Positions 7,778 through 42,154 of a stretch of 64,000 nt of DNA are shown one piece after another (positions within the stretch are counted from its first letter, which is position 1; every line of letters begins with the position of its first letter). The stretch covers positions 62,001-126,000 of the forward strand of contig JAFGIX010000054.1 of assembly GCA_016929395.1 (NCBI GenBank). The letters are read 5' to 3'. Under the pieces are notes generated by a model, which was not told the DNA's origin, did no database searches, and was given only the letters and a program-made list of their open reading frames with translations. Source of the stretch: Candidatus Zymogenus saltonus. GTDB taxonomy: Bacteria; Desulfobacterota; Zymogenia; Zymogenales; Zymogenaceae. Position numbers and translations under genes: made by a program.

Positions 7778-8638
7778 ATGAAGTTTAGGCATATCATTAA
7801 GACATTGGTCATTTTCCTTTTTGCGGCCGCGGTATTCGCAGTGCCGATCTGCGGGCAGGAGGCGGAGCACCTCTCCGCGATCTGGGAAGAGTTTACCGAT
7901 ATCCCCCGATCAAGGGGCGATCGGTGCACGGACATAGTCGGAATATTCAAGCGGCTCGGGGCAAATGAGATCCACGTCGAGAGGATCGAGGGGGGAAACG
8001 GCTGTCCTGGGAACATCATCGTCCCGATCGATTCAAATAGGGAGGACGGCGGAGGAGCGGGTGGGTGTATCATTGTCTCCTCCCACCTCGACATGAAGGG
8101 GGAGGGCGTCGGCGCCCTGGATAATTACAGCGGCGTCTTGATGATGGCGGCCCTTTACAAGGAGATCAAAGGGTGTGAGCTCAAACACGATTTTCTATTC
8201 ATCGCCTTCGACAGGGAGGAGGAGGGTCTGTTGGGGTCGAAGGCCTTTGTAAAGGGGAGCAGATATAAGCCGGGGAAGATTCACGCGGTGATAAACTTCG
8301 ACTGCCTCGGCATTACGCTTCCCCACCCCTGGCCGGAGGGGTCTTCAGATTCTCTGGAAGAGCTTTTTGTGGATGTGGGTGAGAAATTCGGGCACGATCT
8401 CTCCCCGGTCTCCATAAGCTATGTCCGTACCGATTCCGTCCCCTTTCTTAAGGCGGGAATCCCCGCCATAACGCTTGACGGCATAATGCCTTACGATGTC
8501 TTTATCCTCGACTCGAAATTTGACGACCCCTCGGTTGTCGATCGGAACGTCTTTTTCCAAAGCTACAATATTCTTTTAGAGTATATCCTTGAGGTGGATT
8601 CACTCCTTGAGTCGCCGGATGCGAAAAGCGTGAAGTAG
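7778..8638 (+). CDS. M28-family zinc aminopeptidase, exported
   Basis: A di-zinc metallopeptidase of the M28 fold that probably removes N-terminal residues from peptides in the periplasm. An N-terminal hydrophobic segment (about 6-24, ending FAVPICGQ) looks like a signal peptide. Zinc-binding motifs are in order: SSHLDMKG (histidine and aspartate), ALDNYSGV (bridging aspartate), and FDREEEGLLGS (the Glu-Glu pair with the general base). At 286 residues it is the compact catalytic domain without a PA or PDZ extension. The AAGG ribosome binding site lies about seven bases before the ATG. It stands as a single gene. Confidence 0.85.
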   Translation: MKFRHIIKTLVIFLFAAAVFAVPICGQEAEHLSAIWEEFTDIPRSRGDRCTDIVGIFKRLGANEIHVERIEGGNGCPGNIIVPIDSNREDGGGAGGCIIVSSHLDMKGEGVGALDNYSGVLMMAALYKEIKGCELKHDFLFIAFDREEEGLLGSKAFVKGSRYKPGKIHAVINFDCLGITLPHPWPEGSSDSLEELFVDVGEKFGHDLSPVSISYVRTDSVPFLKAGIPAITLDGIMPYDVFILDSKFDDPSVVDRNVFFQSYNILLEYILEVDSLLESPDAKSVK

Positions 8639-8917
8639 GGCGGAAGAATCGCATCGGCCCGCGATGGTGGGGCTGTCTATCTTATTTGGAGGCGGATTAT
8701 AATACCACGCAGGATATAGCTGTAAATTATTGAATTTATTGAAATCGTTGAAATTGGGGGCATTTTTAAAGGCTGCATTAAAAAAAGCGTACCATTTAGG
8801 TAAAGAATATCTTAAAATGGGGTATAAATTTCTTATGTTATGATCGAGTCCTCTCGGGCGTATCCGAGGGATTTCATATCTGAGAGTTAGGGTTTTTTAT
8901 GTTGTAAGGAGGGGAAA

Positions 8918-9334
8918 ATGGAATTCTGGAGCAGCGAAAAGGAGCCGATAGAGGCCTTTTTGAAGTTGTTCGACAAGTGCATGAAGGACAAGGAGCTGGG
9001 CGAAAGCATCAAAAAGATAAATCAATTGATCTGGTTTGACTACACCCAGGACGGCCCGGAGTGCTCCTTCTGGGTGGACTGCCGCGGGGGTAATGTTTCG
9101 TCGGGACAGGGAAGGCCGAAGGAAGAACCGGATTTTACGATGATCCTTTCCGCGGACGACGCCCACCGGTCCTGGTCAAACAAGCTGAGCCCGGTTATGG
9201 CAATAACGAAAAAGAAGGTCATCGTCAAGGGCTCCGCAGCGGGCCTTTTGAAGCTTGCTCCCAAGCTCAAGAATGTGGCGGTTATTTACAACGAGGTCCT
9301 TGACGAGCTCGGCTGGGGTGACAAGAAGCTGTAG
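8918..9334 (+). CDS. SCP2 sterol-binding domain protein
   Basis: A 138-residue protein made almost wholly of one SCP2-like lipid-binding fold. The pattern of a beta-hairpin with WVDCRGG, then DFTMILSADDAHR and a C-terminal GSAAGLLKLAPKLKNV helix matches bacterial SCP2 proteins, which bind acyl or sterol-like ligands in the cytoplasm. There is no signal peptide. A strong site, AAGGAGGGG, precedes the ATG by about six bases. About 280 gene-free bases separate it from the peptidase upstream. The ligand is not evident from the sequence. Confidence 0.82.
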   Translation: MEFWSSEKEPIEAFLKLFDKCMKDKELGESIKKINQLIWFDYTQDGPECSFWVDCRGGNVSSGQGRPKEEPDFTMILSADDAHRSWSNKLSPVMAITKKKVIVKGSAAGLLKLAPKLKNVAVIYNEVLDELGWGDKKL

Positions 9335-9710
9335 GGGTCTTCAACCTTCTTAAACGGGGGAGCTTCAATGGAAAAATTTAAATAGTAGTATAAGCGTTCA
9401 TCGTGGAGCAGAGTCCGCCAGGGCCGAGGTTTTCTCGGCGAAAGCGGACGATCGGCCTTTTGAGTTAAAATGGGACATTTGCTTCTGTCGGGCATGGCGC
9501 TTAAATTTTAAAAACGGGGGCTGCCGTAAAAAGGCAAGCCCCCGATGATCTCTATCACTGCCCTGTAAATCCCTTAAAAAGATTGTTTAGAACCTTCTAG
9601 TCCTCCCGATATTCGGGCCGAAGAGAATCTGGAAAAAGGGACTCAGGCTCGAAATTTATATCTCCAAACAAGACAAATAGTGATTCCGCCACCTGCTTGT
9701 TTAATGGTTT
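9335..9710. other. Gene-free gap between convergent genes
   Basis: No gene seen. It holds one clear hairpin (9515-9544), described separately, which serves the minus-strand gene to the right. Confidence 0.6.
9511..9544 (-). terminator. Intrinsic terminator of the minus-strand secreted-protein gene
   Basis: On the minus strand CGGGGGCTTGCC, a short loop, and GGCAGCCCCCG pair with one bulged base. A run of T and then TTTAAAATTT follows on that strand. It lies about 170 bases beyond the stop at 9711. Confidence 0.75.
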
Positions 9711-10475
9711 TTACTTGACGTTCACCACTATCTTCTCTACGAGGTCGAGGCCCGTGGTCATCTTCGAGGTGTCTTCATACAGGTCTCCGCTCTCCCCGTC
9801 GGGGCTGGAGTGTCCGATGAGCTTCATCTCGTAGCTCTCGGTCTTTGAAGTCAGGTCAATCTCCACCGAATAGACGACGGCGGGCTGCCCCCCCGCATAA
9901 AGACCTCCCGTATAGCCCGGGTCTCCCTGCTTTGCGTCCTCGGTATAAAAATCGTTGAAATCACCGGAGTTGTTGAACTCGGCCACGATGATGAATTTAG
10001 TCAGGGTCTCGGGGACCTTTGTAACGAGTGAAAAGCTCGCCTTCGGGCTGGCCGATGTGATAGCGTCGGGGAGGGGATTGGCTTTAGTAGGAAGGTATAA
10101 TCCGTCTTCATAGACAACGCCTCTCTTGTGTGCCCAGTAAGGGAGCGAGGACTTTCTCCTGACCTTCTCGATCGGCACGCCCTCTCCGGGAGTCTTTCTC
10201 CAATCCTGGGTTCCAACCCTTTTGGTCACATAAATTGTTTCGATATAATTGCCGTCGGTGTCTTCGATCCAAACGGCTATTTGCGGGGTTGTTTTAATTT
10301 TAAAAAACTTCATTACCTTGAGCATATGGGTGTAGTGCTTACCGCCTTCGACAACGAGGGTTATATCCATGCCGGTTTTGTTTTCGCCCGAGGTTATGAC
10401 TATCTCTTTAGAATTGCATGTGGATACACAAAAAGCCGCTAAAATCAGTGCTGTTATAAATAGACCTTTTTTCAC
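9711..10475 (-). CDS. Secreted or lipid-anchored hypothetical protein (DUF2271-like)
   Basis: A 254-residue exported protein. The N-terminus (KKGLFITALILAAFC) is a signal sequence. A Cys in VSTCN could be a lipidation site, although Thr at -1 is unusual, so lipidation is uncertain. The remainder is beta-rich: IAVWIEDTDGNYIETIYVTK, a tryptophan-bearing loop, YSVEIDLTS and a C-terminal KIVVNVK strand. This resembles the DUF2271 family of periplasmic proteins, whose role is unknown. An AAGGAGG site precedes the ATG, and a terminator follows. Upstream on the same strand are the G-rich repeat region and the MglA-like gene. No function is proposed. Confidence 0.7.
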   Translation of the reverse strand: MKKGLFITALILAAFCVSTCNSKEIVITSGENKTGMDITLVVEGGKHYTHMLKVMKFFKIKTTPQIAVWIEDTDGNYIETIYVTKRVGTQDWRKTPGEGVPIEKVRRKSSLPYWAHKRGVVYEDGLYLPTKANPLPDAITSASPKASFSLVTKVPETLTKFIIVAEFNNSGDFNDFYTEDAKQGDPGYTGGLYAGGQPAVVYSVEIDLTSKTESYEMKLIGHSSPDGESGDLYEDTSKMTTGLDLVEKIVVNVK

Positions 10476-35685: not shown

Positions 35686-36774
35686 TCAGCGGTATTTGTA
35701 AAACGCGCTGCAGGCCCCCTCGGATGAGACCATGCAGGGCCCCACGGGATTTCTTGGGTTGCATACGCTTCCGAAGAGTGGGCACTCGTCGGGGCTCATC
35801 ACCCCTTTTAAGATTTCACCGCAGGAGCATCTCTCGTCCTCTTTTGATTCGATTTCCGGGACGTTGAACCTCTCAAGGGCGTCGAAAGATCTATGTTCGG
35901 AGTTGAAGACGAGGCCGCTCTCCGGTATCTCCCCCAGTCCCCGCCATGTGGCGTTCGCCCTGTCGAAGACCCCGTCCATCACTGTCCTGGCGTTCGGGTT
36001 TCCCTCCTCCTTCACCGCCCTTTTGTATTGGATTTCGACATCGAATCTCTCCTCAACTATCTGGTCAATCGTCATCAGTATCCCCTCGAGTATATCCAGA
36101 GGCTCGAATCCGGTAATCACCGCCGCCCGCCCCTTCTCCGGGATGATGGAGTAGGCACCGGCTCCGAGGATTATGCTCACGTGGCCGGGGCACAGAAACC
36201 CGTCCACGTTGATTTTCGGGTCGTCCAAGAGTATCTTAATGGCGGGGGGGATGACCTTGTGAACCGAGAAGACGGAGAAGTTTGTAAGGCCCCTCTTTTT
36301 CGCCGACATCACCGCCGCGGCGACCGTGGGCGACGTGGTCTCAAAGCCGATCCCCAAAAGCACGACCTCCGCTTCCGCCTTCTCTTCGGCCAGGGAGACG
36401 GCGTTTAAGGGGGATGAAACGACCGCTATATTTGCGCCGTCGCTTCTCATCATCTCGAGGGAGGCCCCGTCCGTCCCAGGGACCCTCATCATATCCCCGA
36501 AGGTCGTAAATATCACGCCCTTCTCCTTTGCCAGAAAGAGCGCCCTGTCTATATCTTGTATCGATGTGACGCAGACCGGACAGCCTGGGCCGGAGACGAG
36601 CCTGACGTTCTCCGGCAGAAGGCTTTTGATCCCGAACCGGTTTATCGAGTGGGTGTGGGTTCCGCACACCTCCATGATCGATATATTGCTTTTAAGCCTC
36701 TCGGAGCGTCTTTTTATCGCCGAAACGAGACCCTTGGCGATCTTCGGGTCCCTGTACTCGTCAATAAATTTCAT
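35686..36774 (-). CDS. hypD: Hydrogenase formation protein HypD
   Basis: Iron-sulfur scaffold on which, with HypC, the Fe(CN)2CO unit is built. The 362-residue protein carries the conserved motifs MEVCGTHTHSINR, SGPGCPVCVT, GFETTSP and CPGHVSIILGA, and a cysteine-rich C-terminus (CSCGEIL, CPLFGSVC, GPCMVSSEGAC) that binds the [4Fe-4S] cluster. Its start overlaps the end of hypC by 14 bases, which fits their direct physical partnership. Confidence 0.97.
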   Translation of the reverse strand: MKFIDEYRDPKIAKGLVSAIKRRSERLKSNISIMEVCGTHTHSINRFGIKSLLPENVRLVSGPGCPVCVTSIQDIDRALFLAKEKGVIFTTFGDMMRVPGTDGASLEMMRSDGANIAVVSSPLNAVSLAEEKAEAEVVLLGIGFETTSPTVAAAVMSAKKRGLTNFSVFSVHKVIPPAIKILLDDPKINVDGFLCPGHVSIILGAGAYSIIPEKGRAAVITGFEPLDILEGILMTIDQIVEERFDVEIQYKRAVKEEGNPNARTVMDGVFDRANATWRGLGEIPESGLVFNSEHRSFDALERFNVPEIESKEDERCSCGEILKGVMSPDECPLFGSVCNPRNPVGPCMVSSEGACSAFYKYR

Positions 36775-36991
36775 TGTCTATCAGCTCCTGCAGGAAAGAG
36801 AGCTTCTCCTTTGCCAGCTCCTCGTCTATCTTGTGGATGGCAAAGCCCACGTGGCAGACCACGTAATCTCCCACCTCAACCTCTTCGTCGACGAGGTCGA
36901 GGGAGGCCTCCCTCTTGACGCCCCCCACCTCGATAACGGCGTAGTTGTCCTTGTCGATCGAGATTATTTTTCCGGGAAATGCGATACACAT
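36761..36991 (-). CDS. hypC: Hydrogenase assembly chaperone HypC
   Basis: A 76-residue chaperone that carries the iron unit to the large subunit. It begins MCIAFPGKI, the obligatory N-terminal cysteine at position 2 that binds iron and the large-subunit precursor. GGAGAAAA precedes the ATG. The gene lies 12 bases after hypA; hypB, which usually sits between these two, is missing. Confidence 0.96.
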   Translation of the reverse strand: MCIAFPGKIISIDKDNYAVIEVGGVKREASLDLVDEEVEVGDYVVCHVGFAIHKIDEELAKEKLSFLQELIDNEIY

Positions 36992-37003
36992 ATCTATTTT
37001 CTC

Positions 37004-37351
37004 CTAATCCACGTCCATCTCAAGAAGTTGCAGCTCCTCCGTCCCCCCCACTACCTGCACCTCGTCCGCCCCGCACCCGGGACACTTTGTAAACTCAAAC
37101 CTGCCTACTTCATACTCTTTATTGCACTTAAAACAATATATTATAACGGGAAGTATCTTGAACTCAAGGGTCGCCCCGAACGCAACCGTCCCCTCCGACT
37201 GAACCTTGAACGCCAGTTCGAGCGCCTTCGGTTCTATGTGGGTCATGCGCCCAAAGGAGAGCCTCATCAAGCTGACCTTTTTAAATCCGTGGGTTGCGGA
37301 ATGTTCCTCCACGATTTTTATCAGCGACTGTATCAGGGAAACCTCATGCAT
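37004..37351 (-). CDS. hypA: Nickel metallochaperone HypA
   Basis: Delivers nickel to the hydrogenase large subunit. The 115 residues start MHEVSLIQSL, with the nickel-binding His2, and the zinc site consists of CFKC and CPGC about 15 residues apart. Its ATG lies within the last codons of the hyaD-like protease gene, an eight-base overlap that suggests coupled translation. HypA normally works with the GTPase HypB, which is not encoded here. Confidence 0.95.
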   Translation of the reverse strand: MHEVSLIQSLIKIVEEHSATHGFKKVSLMRLSFGRMTHIEPKALELAFKVQSEGTVAFGATLEFKILPVIIYCFKCNKEYEVGRFEFTKCPGCGADEVQVVGGTEELQLLEMDVD

Positions 37352-37865
37352 CGTCTGTCTTTACGCTTTCCGGGACTATGTTGAGATTGGACAGCTCCTT
37401 CAAGAGGAGCTCCTCGGCTTTCGGAAATTTTTCCCTCATGAGCGGCGTCATCTTTAGGTCCAAATCGCCGCCGTATTCCTTCGGCACTATGCAGAGGAAC
37501 ACGACCTCGGGGCAGCTGTCCATCATCTCGGCCTGAATCAGGATATCAACGAACTCCACCTCGTGGGCGGAGGTCGGCTCCGGCATGTTCAGCTCCATCT
37601 CTTCCCTGCTGAAGCGATAGAGGGAGCCGGGGTCGTCGTCGGCCTTCAAGACGTCTATTACGATGAGGTGTTTCGTGCTCGTTACGATGTCCAGAAGCCC
37701 GAAGCCGAGGGTGCCGCCGTCCACCAGCATAACGTCGTCGGGAAGTCGGTAGCGTTTGCCGAACCACCTGACGAAGTGAACGCCGAAGCCCTCGTCGGCG
37801 AGGAGTATGTTGCCGAGTCCCATCACGGTGATATTTACGGGTTCGGCCTGATATAAGTTGTTCAT
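37344..37865 (-). CDS. hyaD: Hydrogenase maturation endopeptidase (HyaD/HybD family)
   Basis: Cleaves the C-terminal tail of the large subunit after nickel insertion; the tail here would be the 15 residues after DPCMACAVH of HyaB. The 173-residue protein has the nickel-sensing motif VMGLGNILLADEGFG with its conserved Glu, and DVLKADDDPG and AHEVEFVDIL further on, the second and third ligand regions of the family. The start is uncertain: family members begin about 13 residues further in, but no better-placed ribosome binding site is visible. The gene is separated from hyaC by a terminator hairpin. Confidence 0.92.
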   Translation of the reverse strand: MNNLYQAEPVNITVMGLGNILLADEGFGVHFVRWFGKRYRLPDDVMLVDGGTLGFGLLDIVTSTKHLIVIDVLKADDDPGSLYRFSREEMELNMPEPTSAHEVEFVDILIQAEMMDSCPEVVFLCIVPKEYGGDLDLKMTPLMREKFPKAEELLLKELSNLNIVPESVKTDDA

Positions 37866-37953: not shown

Positions 37954-38616
37954 CTATTTCTTTTTCTCGAACATCAGCCCGTTGATCATAGAAGATATGG
38001 TCCCGTCTTTCTTTACGGCATCCGTCCAGAACGCCATGTAGACGTGGACCAAGAAATAAAGAATAAACAGCCACATCAGGATGTGGTGGATGAACTTCAC
38101 CGTCGCAAGCCCCAACACATTTTGGAACGGTTTGACAAAGAAGTAGAAGAAGCTTATCAATCCCTTGTCGTAACCGGATCCGGTGAGGATAAGGCCCGTT
38201 ATGACTATGAAAAGGATCATAACCATAAGTCCCAGATATGCGAGGGACTGGAGCGGCGCATAGGCGTATTTCTCTTCGGGCTTTTCATTGGAGATGAGGG
38301 CGTAAAACTTGATCTGCTTTACGAAATTTTCAAAGTCGAGAAAAGCCAAGAAATCTCTCCAGTCGGCATGGAACCTGGAAAAGAACGCCAGGTACAGTCT
38401 CCAGACGAAAAGTATGGAGAGGAGTATGCCGAAGAAGATGTGGAGAAAGCGAATCTCACCCATCAAGAACTTATCCATCGTTTCACCGGCGGAGATGCTG
38501 AAGGGCCTTCCGATATAGAAGCCGGTAGCTATCAGGACGGTAATCGAGATGACGATCATCCAGTGATTCACCCTTATGGCTGCTGACCACTTCTTTGTGG
38601 ATTCAACGTTTTCCAC
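37954..38616 (-). CDS. hyaC: [NiFe] hydrogenase b-type cytochrome subunit
   Basis: Membrane diheme cytochrome b that passes electrons from the hydrogenase small subunit to quinone. The start is GTG with AGGAGG six bases before it. The 220-residue protein has four membrane segments (about 18-38, 55-75, 130-150 and 180-200) and histidines in membrane positions: RVNHWMIV, FLHIFFGI and KFIHHILMWLF. Its place right after the large subunit (14 bases) identifies it as HyaC-type rather than a formate dehydrogenase gamma subunit. Confidence 0.92.
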   Translation of the reverse strand: MENVESTKKWSAAIRVNHWMIVISITVLIATGFYIGRPFSISAGETMDKFLMGEIRFLHIFFGILLSILFVWRLYLAFFSRFHADWRDFLAFLDFENFVKQIKFYALISNEKPEEKYAYAPLQSLAYLGLMVMILFIVITGLILTGSGYDKGLISFFYFFVKPFQNVLGLATVKFIHHILMWLFILYFLVHVYMAFWTDAVKKDGTISSMINGLMFEKKK

Positions 38617-38630
38617 GGCTACCTCCTTTT

Positions 38631-40298
38631 TTAAGCTACCTTAAATTTTTTGATCTCTTTGGTCTTCGTGTCTATGATGTGAACGGCGCACGCCATACAG
38701 GGATCGAACGAGTGAATTGTCCTCAATATTTCCAGCGGCTGATTTACGTTTGCCATTTTTGTTCCGATGAGGGACTCCTCGTAAGGTCCCCGGTTCTCGG
38801 ACTTGTCCCTCGGCGAAACGTTCCAGGTAGAGGGAACGATCGCCTGGTAGTTTGAGATAACCTTGTTCTCGATATTGATCCAGTGGCCCAGCGCCCCCCT
38901 CGGGACGGCGGTGAGACCCCGGCCCTTGCCATTCTTGGGCACCTTGCACCTTGTCCAGGTCCTGGTGTCTCCGCTCTTGATGTTGTCCACAAGCTCGTTC
39001 AACCAGTTCTCGGCGTAGTCGGCGACAAGCTTGGTCTCCAGGGCCCTTGCGGCCGTTCTGCCCAGTGTCGAGAAAAGGACCGTGGCTGGAAGCCCGGTGG
39101 TCTTCAGGGTGAAGTTCACAAGCTCCGTAATCTTCTCGTCACCCTGGGCGAATCCTACGACGAAGCGGGCGAGGGGGCCGACCTCGTGGGGCAGGCCGTC
39201 ATACCTCGGGGCCTTGGACCATGTGTACTTCTCGTCGCCCTTGATGTGGCCGTCCTCGCCGAAGCCGGTGTACTCGGGCTCCGTCTTGCCGTTGTAGGGG
39301 TGCAGCGCCTCGTCTCCCTTGTACCAGGAGTGGGTGACCTCTTCGGTTATCTTCTCCTCGTTAAGCTCCATCGGATTTGCGATGTCGAGGTTCTGAATGA
39401 CCCCCTTCGGGAGGAGGGTCTTTGTCCAGCCGTCGTCCAGCGGGAATCCCCCGTATGCGAGGTAGTTTCCGACTCCCCTTCCGACGCCCTTGAGTCCCTC
39501 GTCGGCGTAGGCCGCGCCCGCGATCAATACGTCGGGGATATAGGCGGTGTCCACAAACTTCTTCATCTCATTCAGCCTGAATTTGTATTCACCCAGTCTC
39601 TGGGGATCAAGCATGTCCATCACGGAGGTTACGCCGCCGACCACCAGGGTCTGGGGGTGCGGGTTCTTGCCGCCGAAGACCGCCATCATCTGCGCCCCCA
39701 GCTTTGATACCGCCAGGGCGTCGAGATAGTGGGAGGTGATAACCAGGTTCGCCTCGGGAGACAGCTTGTAAGAGGGATTGCCCCAGTATGCATTCGCGAA
39801 GGGTCCCAGACGCCCCGATTCCACAAACTTGGTGATCCTCGCCTGGACCGACTTGTAGTGAGTCTCGGAGCAGTTGTAGGGATTATCGCAGACGCTCTTT
39901 GCCAGCTCAACTGCCTTTCTCGGATTGGCCGATAGGGCGCTTACGATGTCCACCCAGTCGAGGCCGTGAAGGTGATAGAAGTGCATTATGTGGTCTGTAA
40001 TGTACTGGGACGCCTTGATGAGGTTCCTTATGAGCCTTGCGTTTTTCGGGGGCCTTACCCCGAAGGCGTCTTCACATGCCAGGATGGATGCTTCGTAATG
40101 GGAGTAGGTACACACACCGCAAAACCGCTGGGTTATGAGCCCCGCATCCCTCGGGTCCCTCCCCTTTAGGATGGTCTCGAAGCCCCTCCAGAGCGTAATC
40201 GTGCTCCAAGCGTCCTTTATGGTGTTTCCTTCCACCTCAGCCTCTATCCTTAAATGTCCTTCTATCCTTGTAATTGGATCTACAATGATTCTTGACAT
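38631..40298 (-). CDS. hyaB: [NiFe] hydrogenase large subunit, group 1
   Basis: Catalytic subunit that oxidises H2 at the Ni-Fe(CN)2CO centre. The 555-residue protein has the L1 motif RFCGVC (Cys60, Cys63) and the L2 motif DPCMACAVH (Cys534, Cys537, His540). A 15-residue tail follows His540 and would be removed by the HyaD-type protease, as in all enzymes that need this step. The N-terminal DPITRIEGHLRI is characteristic. AGGAGAG precedes the ATG. Together with the cytochrome b and the Tat-type small subunit it forms a membrane-bound uptake hydrogenase. Confidence 0.98.
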   Translation of the reverse strand: MSRIIVDPITRIEGHLRIEAEVEGNTIKDAWSTITLWRGFETILKGRDPRDAGLITQRFCGVCTYSHYEASILACEDAFGVRPPKNARLIRNLIKASQYITDHIMHFYHLHGLDWVDIVSALSANPRKAVELAKSVCDNPYNCSETHYKSVQARITKFVESGRLGPFANAYWGNPSYKLSPEANLVITSHYLDALAVSKLGAQMMAVFGGKNPHPQTLVVGGVTSVMDMLDPQRLGEYKFRLNEMKKFVDTAYIPDVLIAGAAYADEGLKGVGRGVGNYLAYGGFPLDDGWTKTLLPKGVIQNLDIANPMELNEEKITEEVTHSWYKGDEALHPYNGKTEPEYTGFGEDGHIKGDEKYTWSKAPRYDGLPHEVGPLARFVVGFAQGDEKITELVNFTLKTTGLPATVLFSTLGRTAARALETKLVADYAENWLNELVDNIKSGDTRTWTRCKVPKNGKGRGLTAVPRGALGHWINIENKVISNYQAIVPSTWNVSPRDKSENRGPYEESLIGTKMANVNQPLEILRTIHSFDPCMACAVHIIDTKTKEIKKFKVA

Positions 40299-40334: not shown

Positions 40335-41543
40335 CTACTTTTTAGCCTTGCCCTTTTTGGGCTCTTCTTCGCCGCTCTTCCTCCAGACCGTTGCGCCGGC
40401 GTGGGCGGCGAGCCCTATGGCCGCAACTCCCGTGGCGATCGCGCCGACCCTGTCGACGGTGGACTCAATTCCAAAGCCCGGGATGTGTTTGTCGGCGATA
40501 GGCTTCTCCAGCGGTGCCATGGCGTCCCAGAAATCGGGCTCTGTGCAGCCCATGCATCCGTGTCCGGCCATGATCGGCCAAGACATCCTGTCGTTGAAGC
40601 GAAGCTTGGGGCAGTTGGAGTAGGTGTAAGGTCCCTTGCATCCCATCTTGTAGAGGCACCAGCCTTTGATGGCTCCCTCGTCTCCCCATTCCTCCACGAA
40701 CTCGCCCGCATCGTAGTGGGCCCTCCTCTCGCAGTTGTCGTGGATCTTCATCCCGTACGCCCAAATGGGTCTCCCCAGCCCGTCGGTGGGAGGAAGGGCT
40801 CCAAAGAGGAGGTAGTAAAGAACGGTCCCGGTAAAGTTGACGCCGTTCGGCGGACAGCCGGGGATATTTACAGTACTTATCCCCAATGCGTCGCCGACAC
40901 CCTTGGCGTTGGTCGGGTTGGGAGAGGCCGCCTGGACGTTCCCGAAAGACGAGCAGCTCCCGATGCAGATCGTAGCCGCCGCCCTTTTGGTTACCTCCTT
41001 GGTTACCTCGTAACCGGTTTTTCCCTGGGGTCCCAGCGTCAAGAACTTGCCGTCCATGCCCATAGGAATGGCGCCCTCTACAACGCAGATGTACCTGCCG
41101 TCGAAGGTATCCATCGCATTGTGGAGATTCTCCTCCGCCTGGTAACCGGCTGCCGCCATGACCGTCTCGTGGTATTCGAGGGAAATTGTTTCGAGGAGGA
41201 TGTCATCCACGTTCGGGTAGGAGTTTCTCAGAAACGCCTCGCTGCACCCGGTACACTCCGCCAAATGGAGCCATATGACGGGGAGACGGCTGAAGTTTTC
41301 CGCCGCCCGGGCCACCATCGGGCTAAATGCCTTGGGGAGCATCAATGCGGTGGTCATCACGGAAGACCATTTGATGAAGTCCCTTCTCGATACCCCGTAA
41401 TCCTTCAGGGTTTGACGAAGGTCAAATTTGGGCTCCGGCAATTCCCTTTCCATCCGATCCATCGTTGCCTCGCAGTATTCCATCAATCCTTCATACTGCT
41501 TTTCGATCAGATGGGTATACTTGGAGTCTTTTGAATTACCCAT
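40335..41543 (-). CDS. hyaA: [NiFe] hydrogenase small subunit with Tat signal
   Basis: Electron-transfer subunit with three iron-sulfur clusters. The twin-arginine motif SRRDFIK (Arg53-Arg54) follows an unusually long 50-residue N-terminal region. The proximal cluster ligands start at CTGC (Cys97, Cys100) with GSCSS and GCPPN; the distal and medial ligands are HDNC, CLYKMGC, NCPKL and HGCMGC. The proximal motif is CTGC, not the CTCC of the oxygen-tolerant enzymes, so a standard four-cysteine, oxygen-sensitive cluster is expected. A C-terminal membrane anchor (about 365-388) precedes a basic tail. AAAGGA lies six bases before the ATG. It is the first structural gene of the operon. Confidence 0.97.
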   Translation of the reverse strand: MGNSKDSKYTHLIEKQYEGLMEYCEATMDRMERELPEPKFDLRQTLKDYGVSRRDFIKWSSVMTTALMLPKAFSPMVARAAENFSRLPVIWLHLAECTGCSEAFLRNSYPNVDDILLETISLEYHETVMAAAGYQAEENLHNAMDTFDGRYICVVEGAIPMGMDGKFLTLGPQGKTGYEVTKEVTKRAAATICIGSCSSFGNVQAASPNPTNAKGVGDALGISTVNIPGCPPNGVNFTGTVLYYLLFGALPPTDGLGRPIWAYGMKIHDNCERRAHYDAGEFVEEWGDEGAIKGWCLYKMGCKGPYTYSNCPKLRFNDRMSWPIMAGHGCMGCTEPDFWDAMAPLEKPIADKHIPGFGIESTVDRVGAIATGVAAIGLAAHAGATVWRKSGEEEPKKGKAKK

Positions 41544-41788
41544 AACTTATCCTTTCATTTATTATATAAAAAATTGACCCTTCTTCTACTTTATCGAAGA
41601 ACCTGCTTTTAGTGCTTAAGGAAATATTAGATACTTTCAAATACCCTTTTACTTTTAAACAGAACATTTTCCATTCTGGTAAAAAACGGCAGATTTGTAT
41701 GAGGGAGAGAGTAATTGGAACTCGAATAGCTAATCTTATTTAGGGCGAAGGAGCGGCGTGAGTTTACAAATCCATAAAAAATGAAAGC

Positions 41789-41815
41789 AGAATAAACGTT
41801 GATAAGCTTTGTCAA
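41789..41815 (-). promoter_or_regulatory. Possible second promoter close to hyaA
   Basis: On the minus strand TTGACA, a 15-base spacer and TATTCT; the short spacer makes it weak. It would start transcription about 240 bases before the hyaA ATG, downstream of the leader hairpin at 41911-41939. Confidence 0.3.
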
Positions 41816-41910
41816 ATAAAAAAGGCAAAACGCGGAAATTCTTCTAAAGGCAGTAAGTTCAATGCAATTAAATGAACTTTTGGAAAGATGAAGTTGATAT
41901 GGTGTTGTAT

Positions 41911-41939
41911 AAAAATGAAATCGCACAGAGACAGTGCGA
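41911..41939 (-). terminator. Terminator-like hairpin in the hydrogenase leader
   Basis: On the minus strand TCGCAC, a seven-base loop and GTGCGA are followed by TTTCATTTTT. With the structured RNA immediately upstream, this could act as an attenuator or end a free-standing small RNA. Confidence 0.55.
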
Positions 41940-42119
41940 CCATAGATAAAGGCATCCATAATAAATTCTCCTTTCCAAACACGGGAGGCTTAGCCGTTTC
42001 CCGCCAAACCCTATCGTCCTTCCACCGTAGGCGGTATTCTTTAAGGTTTTCCTTAAAGCTATAGAGAAATTCTCTATAGTCCCCCGCCCTTAGGTAAAAA
42101 GGATCGGAAAATTCTTTGT
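41940..42119 (-). ncRNA. Structured leader RNA upstream of the hydrogenase operon (candidate riboswitch)
   Basis: From the predicted transcription start near 42119 the minus strand contains, in order: CTATAGAG/CTCTATAG (eight pairs, five-base loop, 42059-42079); CTTTAAGG/CCTTAAAG (eight pairs, AAAA loop, 42039-42058); CCGCC-TAC-GGTGG; and CGGGA/TCCCG enclosing GGC-TAA-GCC. It then gives GGAAAGGAG, eight bases and ATG at 41959, and a terminator-like hairpin. G-rich GGGCGGGGG near the 5' end could pair alternatively with CCGCC. I could not match conserved cores of the riboswitch classes I know. The frame opened by the ATG (110 codons to 41627) is AT-rich and does not look like a normal protein, so a leader peptide or no protein at all are both possible. 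Confidence 0.6.
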
Positions 42120-42125
42120 TAGAGC

Positions 42126-42154
42126 ATATTAGAGAAGGAGAGTCGTGTTGTCAA
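42126..42154 (-). promoter_or_regulatory. Sigma70 promoter upstream of the hydrogenase leader
   Basis: On the minus strand TTGACA (42154-42149), a 17-base spacer and TAATAT (42131-42126). Spacing is ideal and the -35 is perfect. It reads into the structured leader and then the hyaA operon. Confidence 0.75.

Follow-up and report, generated by a model that had tools for sequence, protein, structure and literature searches.

A Moco riboswitch in the leader of the only [NiFe] hydrogenase operon of Candidatus Zymogenus saltonus, with predicted OFF control by the cofactor

The only [NiFe] hydrogenase operon of Candidatus Zymogenus saltonus is preceded by a member of the Moco RNA family (RF01055), a known sensor of the molybdenum or tungsten cofactor, and the same class of RNA occupies this position in related bacteria. 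We propose that it acts in cis, as a riboswitch of the P3-less subtype in the operon's leader, and that the cofactor would shut the hydrogenase off in a cofactor-sparing logic, a reading to which we give a probability of about 0.7. The conserved position suggests that the hydrogenase is made when the metal cofactor of formate dehydrogenase (FDH) is scarce. Such a role would bring conserved [NiFe] hydrogenase operons, whose enzymes do not require the cofactor, into the Moco/Tuco riboswitch regulon, with a predicted sign. If this is true, the trace supply of tungsten or molybdenum would determine, in anaerobic sediments, how far electrons are carried as H2 and how far as formate.

Identity and architecture of the leader RNA

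A cmscan search against Rfam of the window, the whole 64-kb stretch of DNA analysed, returned a single match above threshold. This was RF01055, the Moco/Tuco riboswitch, matched over its full length (1-135) with 68.1 bits and E = 2.8e-14, where the curated cut-off is 36 bits; FsrA, RMST_3 and tsr24 appeared as sub-threshold chance matches and were rejected as the class of this leader. An earlier note, made from the DNA letters, had described the region as a structured leader that its author could not match to the molybdenum cofactor class, and had proposed a cmscan including RF01055. That search has now supplied the class. The TTGACA-17-TAATAT pattern, the hairpins, the GC-rich stems and the T-rich-tailed TCGCAC/GTGCGA hairpin that the note listed are all found on the minus strand (Table 1), and the leader is indeed structured. 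Its fold reaches -62.6 kcal/mol, whereas 200 dinucleotide-shuffled versions average -40.7 +/- 3.8 (z = -5.8) and none of them folded as low.

The alignment to RF01055 accounts for the parts of the leader. Conserved P1, P2, P4, P5 and the core UUUGGAAAGG are all present, a GAAA at 42000-41997 sits on P4, and the P2 flanks CCTAAG and TACGG on the receptor side align to the consensus; a tertiary contact is predicted. The two adjacent hairpins, of eight to nine pairs each, are an insertion at the variable end of P2, with arms CTATAGAGA/TCTCTATAG (42079-42059) and CTTTAAGG/CCTTAAAG (42058-42039), and the GC-rich hairpins are the P2 apical stem (GGGCGG/CCGCCT) and P4. The note had also drawn attention to GGAAAGGAG, eight bases before an ATG at 41959. 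It is present as described, but it corresponds to the Rfam consensus UUUGGAAAGGaG, the conserved 3' core and P1 strand, and the hydrogenase start lies about 400 nt further on. By this alignment, GGAAAGGAG is aptamer core and not primarily a ribosome-binding site.

In the alignment of the window copy the P3 columns are deleted, and a short joint takes the place of P3 in all five Moco RNAs of the genome; a regular-expression test for P3 matched all 142 Moco RNAs of our census and hence did not discriminate. P3-less Moco RNAs have been associated with the tungsten cofactor (Regulski et al. 2008, PMC2408646). P3 is absent here as in the variants proposed to sense that cofactor, and the tungsten form is more likely to be the ligand than the molybdenum form; the TupABC-like tungstate transporter and the aldehyde:ferredoxin oxidoreductase genes of the genome are indirect pointers in the same direction.

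On the 5' side, TTGACA (42154-42149) and TAATAT (42131-42126) are separated by a 17-nt spacer. By itself this pattern is not above chance in a local scan (one found, 1.7 expected); every one of the six hydrogenase leaders, however, has a TTGAC(A/T) element 29-37 nt upstream of its aptamer. A second conserved element, TTGACAAAGCT, lies in the 400-nt leader at 41795-41830 (minus strand) and at the same place in L035, and thus in both Zymogenus genomes, without a good -10. It is a possible internal promoter or regulator site, and transcription of hyaA may start from an internal promoter inside the leader.

Table 1. Features of the hydrogenase leader and operon in the window
Feature	Position	Strand	Basis or remark
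Sigma-70-type promoter TTGACA-17-TAATAT	42126..42154	minus	local pattern scan; upstream element in six leaders
Moco/Tuco riboswitch aptamer RF01055, P3-less, P2 extended	41952..42121	minus	cmscan
P1 5' strand GAATTTTCC	42106..42114	minus	RF01055 alignment and fold
Two adjacent hairpins, P2 extension, peripheral	42039..42079	minus	alignment, fold, sister comparison
P4 stem with GAAA tetraloop	41987..42010	minus	alignment, covariation
GGAAAGGAG, conserved aptamer core/P1 strand, also Shine-Dalgarno-like	41968..41976	minus	Rfam consensus; invariant in G000-G003 leaders
P1 3' strand GGAGAATTT	41963..41971	minus	RF01055 alignment and fold
Intrinsic-terminator-like hairpin GTCGCAC..GTGCGAT with T-rich tail, beyond P1 (OFF-type geometry)	41909..41941	minus	hairpin scoring; arms kept in sister
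110-aa leader reading frame	41627..41959	minus	ORF list; starts 8 nt after GGAG, runs through terminator
[NiFe] hydrogenase small subunit, TAT-type signal	40335..41543	minus	TIGR00391, PF14720
[NiFe] hydrogenase large subunit	38631..40298	minus	PF00374
Hydrogenase cytochrome b subunit	37954..38616	minus	TIGR02125
Maturation protease	37344-37865	minus	part of block 35686..37865
hypA	37004-37351	minus	part of maturation block
hypC-like	36761-36991	minus	read from sequence MCIAFPGKI
hypD	35686-36774	minus	part of maturation block

The operon and other Moco RNAs of the genome

Downstream of the RNA the order is hyaA, hyaB, cytochrome b, protease, hypA, hypC, hypD and more maturation genes. A genome search found no [NiFe] hydrogenase large subunit other than that of this operon; the closest named relative of the small subunit is from Candidatus Zymogenus sp. 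CSMAG_2390. All of these are structural or maturation genes of the hydrogenase, none of them makes, imports or uses Moco/Tuco, and the cofactor has no part in [NiFe] hydrogenases. The gene target is the unusual feature of the window copy, target type being a habit of known members and not a structural criterion.

The genome encodes four AOR-family (aldehyde:ferredoxin oxidoreductase) genes and the tungstate transporter TupABC. Besides the hydrogenase leader, its Moco RNAs precede the TupABC-type transporter with moe/moa genes, an NAD-type aldehyde dehydrogenase and, as a tandem pair, an AOR. The tandem pair (L034:5088-5199 and L034:5290-5401, contig C28) consists of a low-scoring variant of the aptamer (39-41 bits, core TTGCAAAGGAAG, P4 without a GAAA loop), each copy with its own strong terminator, in which the P1 3' strand serves as one of the arms (-23.6 and -30.9 kcal/mol). 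A selenocysteine (TGA) FDH operon with a cytochrome b subunit, at L270:8401-14714, adjoins an AOR homologue; this FDH is the cofactor-needing functional counterpart of the hydrogenase. A Moco RNA was looked for near this FDH operon and none was found.

Conservation of the pairing

A Moco RNA stands directly ahead of the orthologous hydrogenase in all four family genomes examined, at distances of 409, 427, 300 and 216 nt; these are the present genome (G000), the Zymogenus sister species (G001), G002 and G003. The earlier note had proposed looking for conservation and compensatory changes, and both are found. The 3' half of the aptamer matches the sister species at 95.5% of positions, whereas identity falls to 49% upstream of the promoter and to 49-67% in the surroundings, and is only 52.7% in the P2 extension. 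Across the six hydrogenase leaders 91.7% of P4 cells are paired, with 11 both-sided changes in six species, and the P4 covariation score of 0.633 was reached by none of 500 shuffles.

The association is not a property of the whole hydrogenase clade, a possibility that we discarded when, among the 30 genomes with the closest hydrogenases, a Moco RNA lay directly ahead in two only, G042 and the Zymogenus sister already counted (G039, the same as G001; contig L035/L055). The census covered 142 Moco RNAs, most of them from 395 sampled genomes of the phylum, and added one further case, G102. G042 and G102 share one other family, yet the tree places their hydrogenases at a great distance from each other, G102 being a long branch. 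The pairing therefore probably arose, or spread, more than once.

In G002 (contig C85, L037) the FDH and hydrogenase operons are arranged head-to-tail with FDH upstream, each with its own Moco RNA, and ON-type terminator geometry is seen at the FDH copy only, not at the hydrogenase one. In G003 the FDH operon is divergent from the hydrogenase operon.

Terminator geometry and predicted direction of control

In each leader the strongest terminator-like hairpin was located relative to P1, and the leader was called ON where the P1 3' strand is an arm of the terminator and OFF where the terminator lies beyond P1. Where the P1 3' strand forms the terminator's 5' arm, a ligand-stabilised P1 must prevent termination, so that the cofactor means ON. 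Four leaders have this arrangement, two at AOR genes of the present genome and two at FDH genes, in G002 and G196. The 87 OFF-type leaders, in which the loop or 3' arm of the terminator is often complementary to the aptamer core, include those of transport and biosynthesis genes and both hydrogenase leaders that were scored, the window's and that of G102. From a survey of 142 leaders, classifiable terminators at AOR/FDH genes are four ON and none OFF, and those at all other genes are one ON and 87 OFF (Fisher p = 1.8e-6, a value that overstates the evidence because leaders within one lineage are not independent); several AOR/FDH leaders have no classifiable terminator.

The G102 hydrogenase leader is a textbook OFF platform, with a terminator GGCCATTACC..GGGTGCTGGCC followed by TTTTTT; the inner segment of this terminator, CCTTCCGATATACGGG, is complementary to CCCGTACTTGGAAAGG in the aptamer core, which gives a clear antiterminator. 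In the window a control layout is present, with the promoter upstream, a terminator-like hairpin downstream and the hydrogenase operon next on the same strand; this hairpin is separate from P1, beginning 31 nt downstream of the first base of the P1 3' strand. The sister species retains the arms in a hairpin that is 20 nt longer, and because the arms are kept despite this change the window terminator is likely to be functional. The G002, G003 and G042 leaders, half of the hydrogenase set, have no clear intrinsic terminator. Because the window and G102 leaders both have OFF geometry, we infer that the cofactor turns the hydrogenase off.

No antiterminator above chance was detected in the window leader (z = +0.6, -0.4 and +0.8 against shuffled sequence), and pairing of the core or aptamer with the window terminator, considered for this role, was no better than in shuffles. 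A long-range "anti-core" CTTTCCAAA located after the terminator occurs in both G000 and G001, but it was set aside as non-significant for Zymogenus-family hydrogenase leaders; such pairing reaches significance chiefly in two aldehyde dehydrogenase leaders, G000a and G003b. The Moco RNA before the NAD-type aldehyde dehydrogenase (L032 minus strand, leader of ORF 8470-10077) is found in three family genomes. In the present genome it is followed by a 16-pair complement to its aptamer core (TTTTCCTTTCCAAACA; z = -4.9 against shuffles), with no intrinsic terminator.

Proposed mechanism and alternatives

We propose that when the tungsten (or molybdenum) pyranopterin cofactor is plentiful the aptamer would close P1, and the terminator hairpin just behind it would stop transcription and keep the hydrogenase off; when the cofactor is short, P1 would open and RNA polymerase would read into hyaAB-cytb-protease-hypACD. 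The sequences show the identity of the aptamer, its conserved position and the geometry of the terminator, whereas the ligand, the direction, the coupling in the window copy and the physiological role are part of the proposal. The purpose of such a switch may be to spare cofactor. FDH and AOR need it and carry ON-type switches in this lineage, and the hydrogenase, being cofactor-independent, would take over their electron-carrier role. The general rule would be that with cofactor present the tungsten enzymes are on, and with cofactor absent uptake, synthesis and cofactor-free stand-ins are on. A broader version, in which a single RNA class switches interspecies electron carriers in the Zymogenus relatives, ON at FDH/AOR and OFF at the sole [NiFe] hydrogenase, with tungsten setting formate versus H2, is more tentative, and we rate it at somewhat less than an even chance; the NAD-type aldehyde dehydrogenase would perhaps be a further OFF target.

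The main rival concerns how the aptamer is coupled to termination and leaves the OFF outcome the same. The cofactor would hide GGAAAGGAG in P1, and without cofactor a ribosome on the leader ORF starting at 41959 would cover the hairpin at 41941-41919 and block termination. Occlusion of a ribosome site by P1 is an established Moco RNA platform (PMC2408646), and GGAG followed at the same spacing by a start codon is present in G000 (ATG) and G001 (GTG), in hydrogenase and tungstate-transporter leaders alike, with a frame that crosses the terminator; an ATG is also found in G003 and G102. Yet the core is Shine-Dalgarno-like in nearly all members of the family, start codons at this position are only mildly enriched (33 against 19-26 in neighbouring windows, 54 leaders), G002 and G042 have none there, and the peptide is not clearly conserved and matches no family. 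We consider ribosome coupling unlikely. The 110-aa frame has no Pfam match, limited similarity to the sister species and a broken frame; we rejected it as a real protein and regard it as at most a regulatory leader ORF.

That the cofactor instead turns the hydrogenase on, raising it together with FDH as in a formate-hydrogen system, would fit the adjacency of the two operons in G002 and their divergent arrangement in G003, and Song et al. (2017) propose a balance of FDH and hydrogenase through Moco RNA in E. limosum, direction not given (PMC5651825). We hold it to be improbable, since the clear ON cases use the P1 3' strand as a terminator arm, the G000 and G102 hydrogenase leaders do not, and G102 carries OFF-type antiterminator complementarity. 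Least probable is constitutive termination, with the leader a free-standing small RNA and the hydrogenase expressed from another promoter. The earlier note had offered a free-standing small RNA as an option beside a riboswitch or attenuator. The terminator-like hairpin, some 180 nt downstream of the promoter, would agree with it, as would the additional TTGACA-like sequence that the leaders of G000 and G001 contain, but the strong full-length match is to a cis-regulatory family, placement before the same operon is kept in six genomes and the second TTGACA has no good -10 partner. The small RNA is thus not supported, and the note's other option, a riboswitch or attenuator controlling hydrogenase, is supported by the Moco aptamer, the terminator-like hairpin and the conserved place before the same operon in relatives.

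Relation to known systems

The window RNA shares with the Moco RNA described by Regulski et al. (2008) its aptamer sequence and secondary structure, the P4 GAAA tetraloop, the core UUUGGAAAGGAG, the promoter-aptamer-platform layout and the P3-less subtype linked to the tungsten cofactor (PMC2408646). It differs in its enlarged P2 and in its target, a [NiFe] hydrogenase without Moco/Tuco use; hydrogenase is not mentioned in the main text of that paper. A Moco RNA before a hydrogenase cluster is already known, in Eubacterium limosum (ELIM_c3126-c3132), where cofactor availability was suggested to balance hydrogenase with FDH (Song et al. 2017, PMC5651825). That case concerns one organism of a different phylum, with hydrogenase type and direction unstated and no comparative or platform analysis, whereas the present set comprises [NiFe] hydrogenases in six genomes with OFF geometry in the two leaders scored. 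Among the open-access papers searched, none described a conserved Moco RNA ahead of a [NiFe] hydrogenase, or opposite terminator geometries at hydrogenase versus FDH/AOR.

In Pelobacter carbinolicus, Moco riboswitches have been reported ahead of aorA1-aorA3, and tungstate increases two of these AORs, the response expected of an ON switch, but leaves the hydrogenase of that organism unaffected (PMC3543383, PMC4275255). The RNA class is the same, and there it sits on genes of tungsten enzymes, which unlike the hydrogenase use the cofactor.

The cobalamin riboswitch offers an analogy of logic only. It represses metE, whose product stands in without needing the cofactor, and so there too a cofactor sensor silences a substitute; the RNA class, the ligand and the enzymes are all different. 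Because ON-type and OFF-type copies of a single aptamer class occur within this genome, the control mechanism of the poorly characterised Moco riboswitches becomes testable side by side.

Other targets in the census

Four loci of family f34 (L185, L219, L240 and L241) have OFF-type Moco RNAs before xanthine-dehydrogenase-family molybdenum enzymes, opposite to AOR/FDH. The geometry at these Mo-hydroxylase leaders rules out a rule by which all Mo/W enzymes carry ON switches; one speculation that would fit it is that the P3-less aptamer reads tungsten and that these enzymes are molybdenum alternatives. Several AOR leaders, among them L267 (G042) and L194 (G134), repeat the Shine-Dalgarno sequence (GGAGAGC/GGAGAG) 25-35 nt beyond P1, where it is complementary to the P1 5' strand (GCTCTCC); this looks like a translational ON platform. 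Directly behind the Moco RNAs L220, L204 and others are Porin_O_P-type outer-membrane porins, which are candidate tungstate or molybdate porins.
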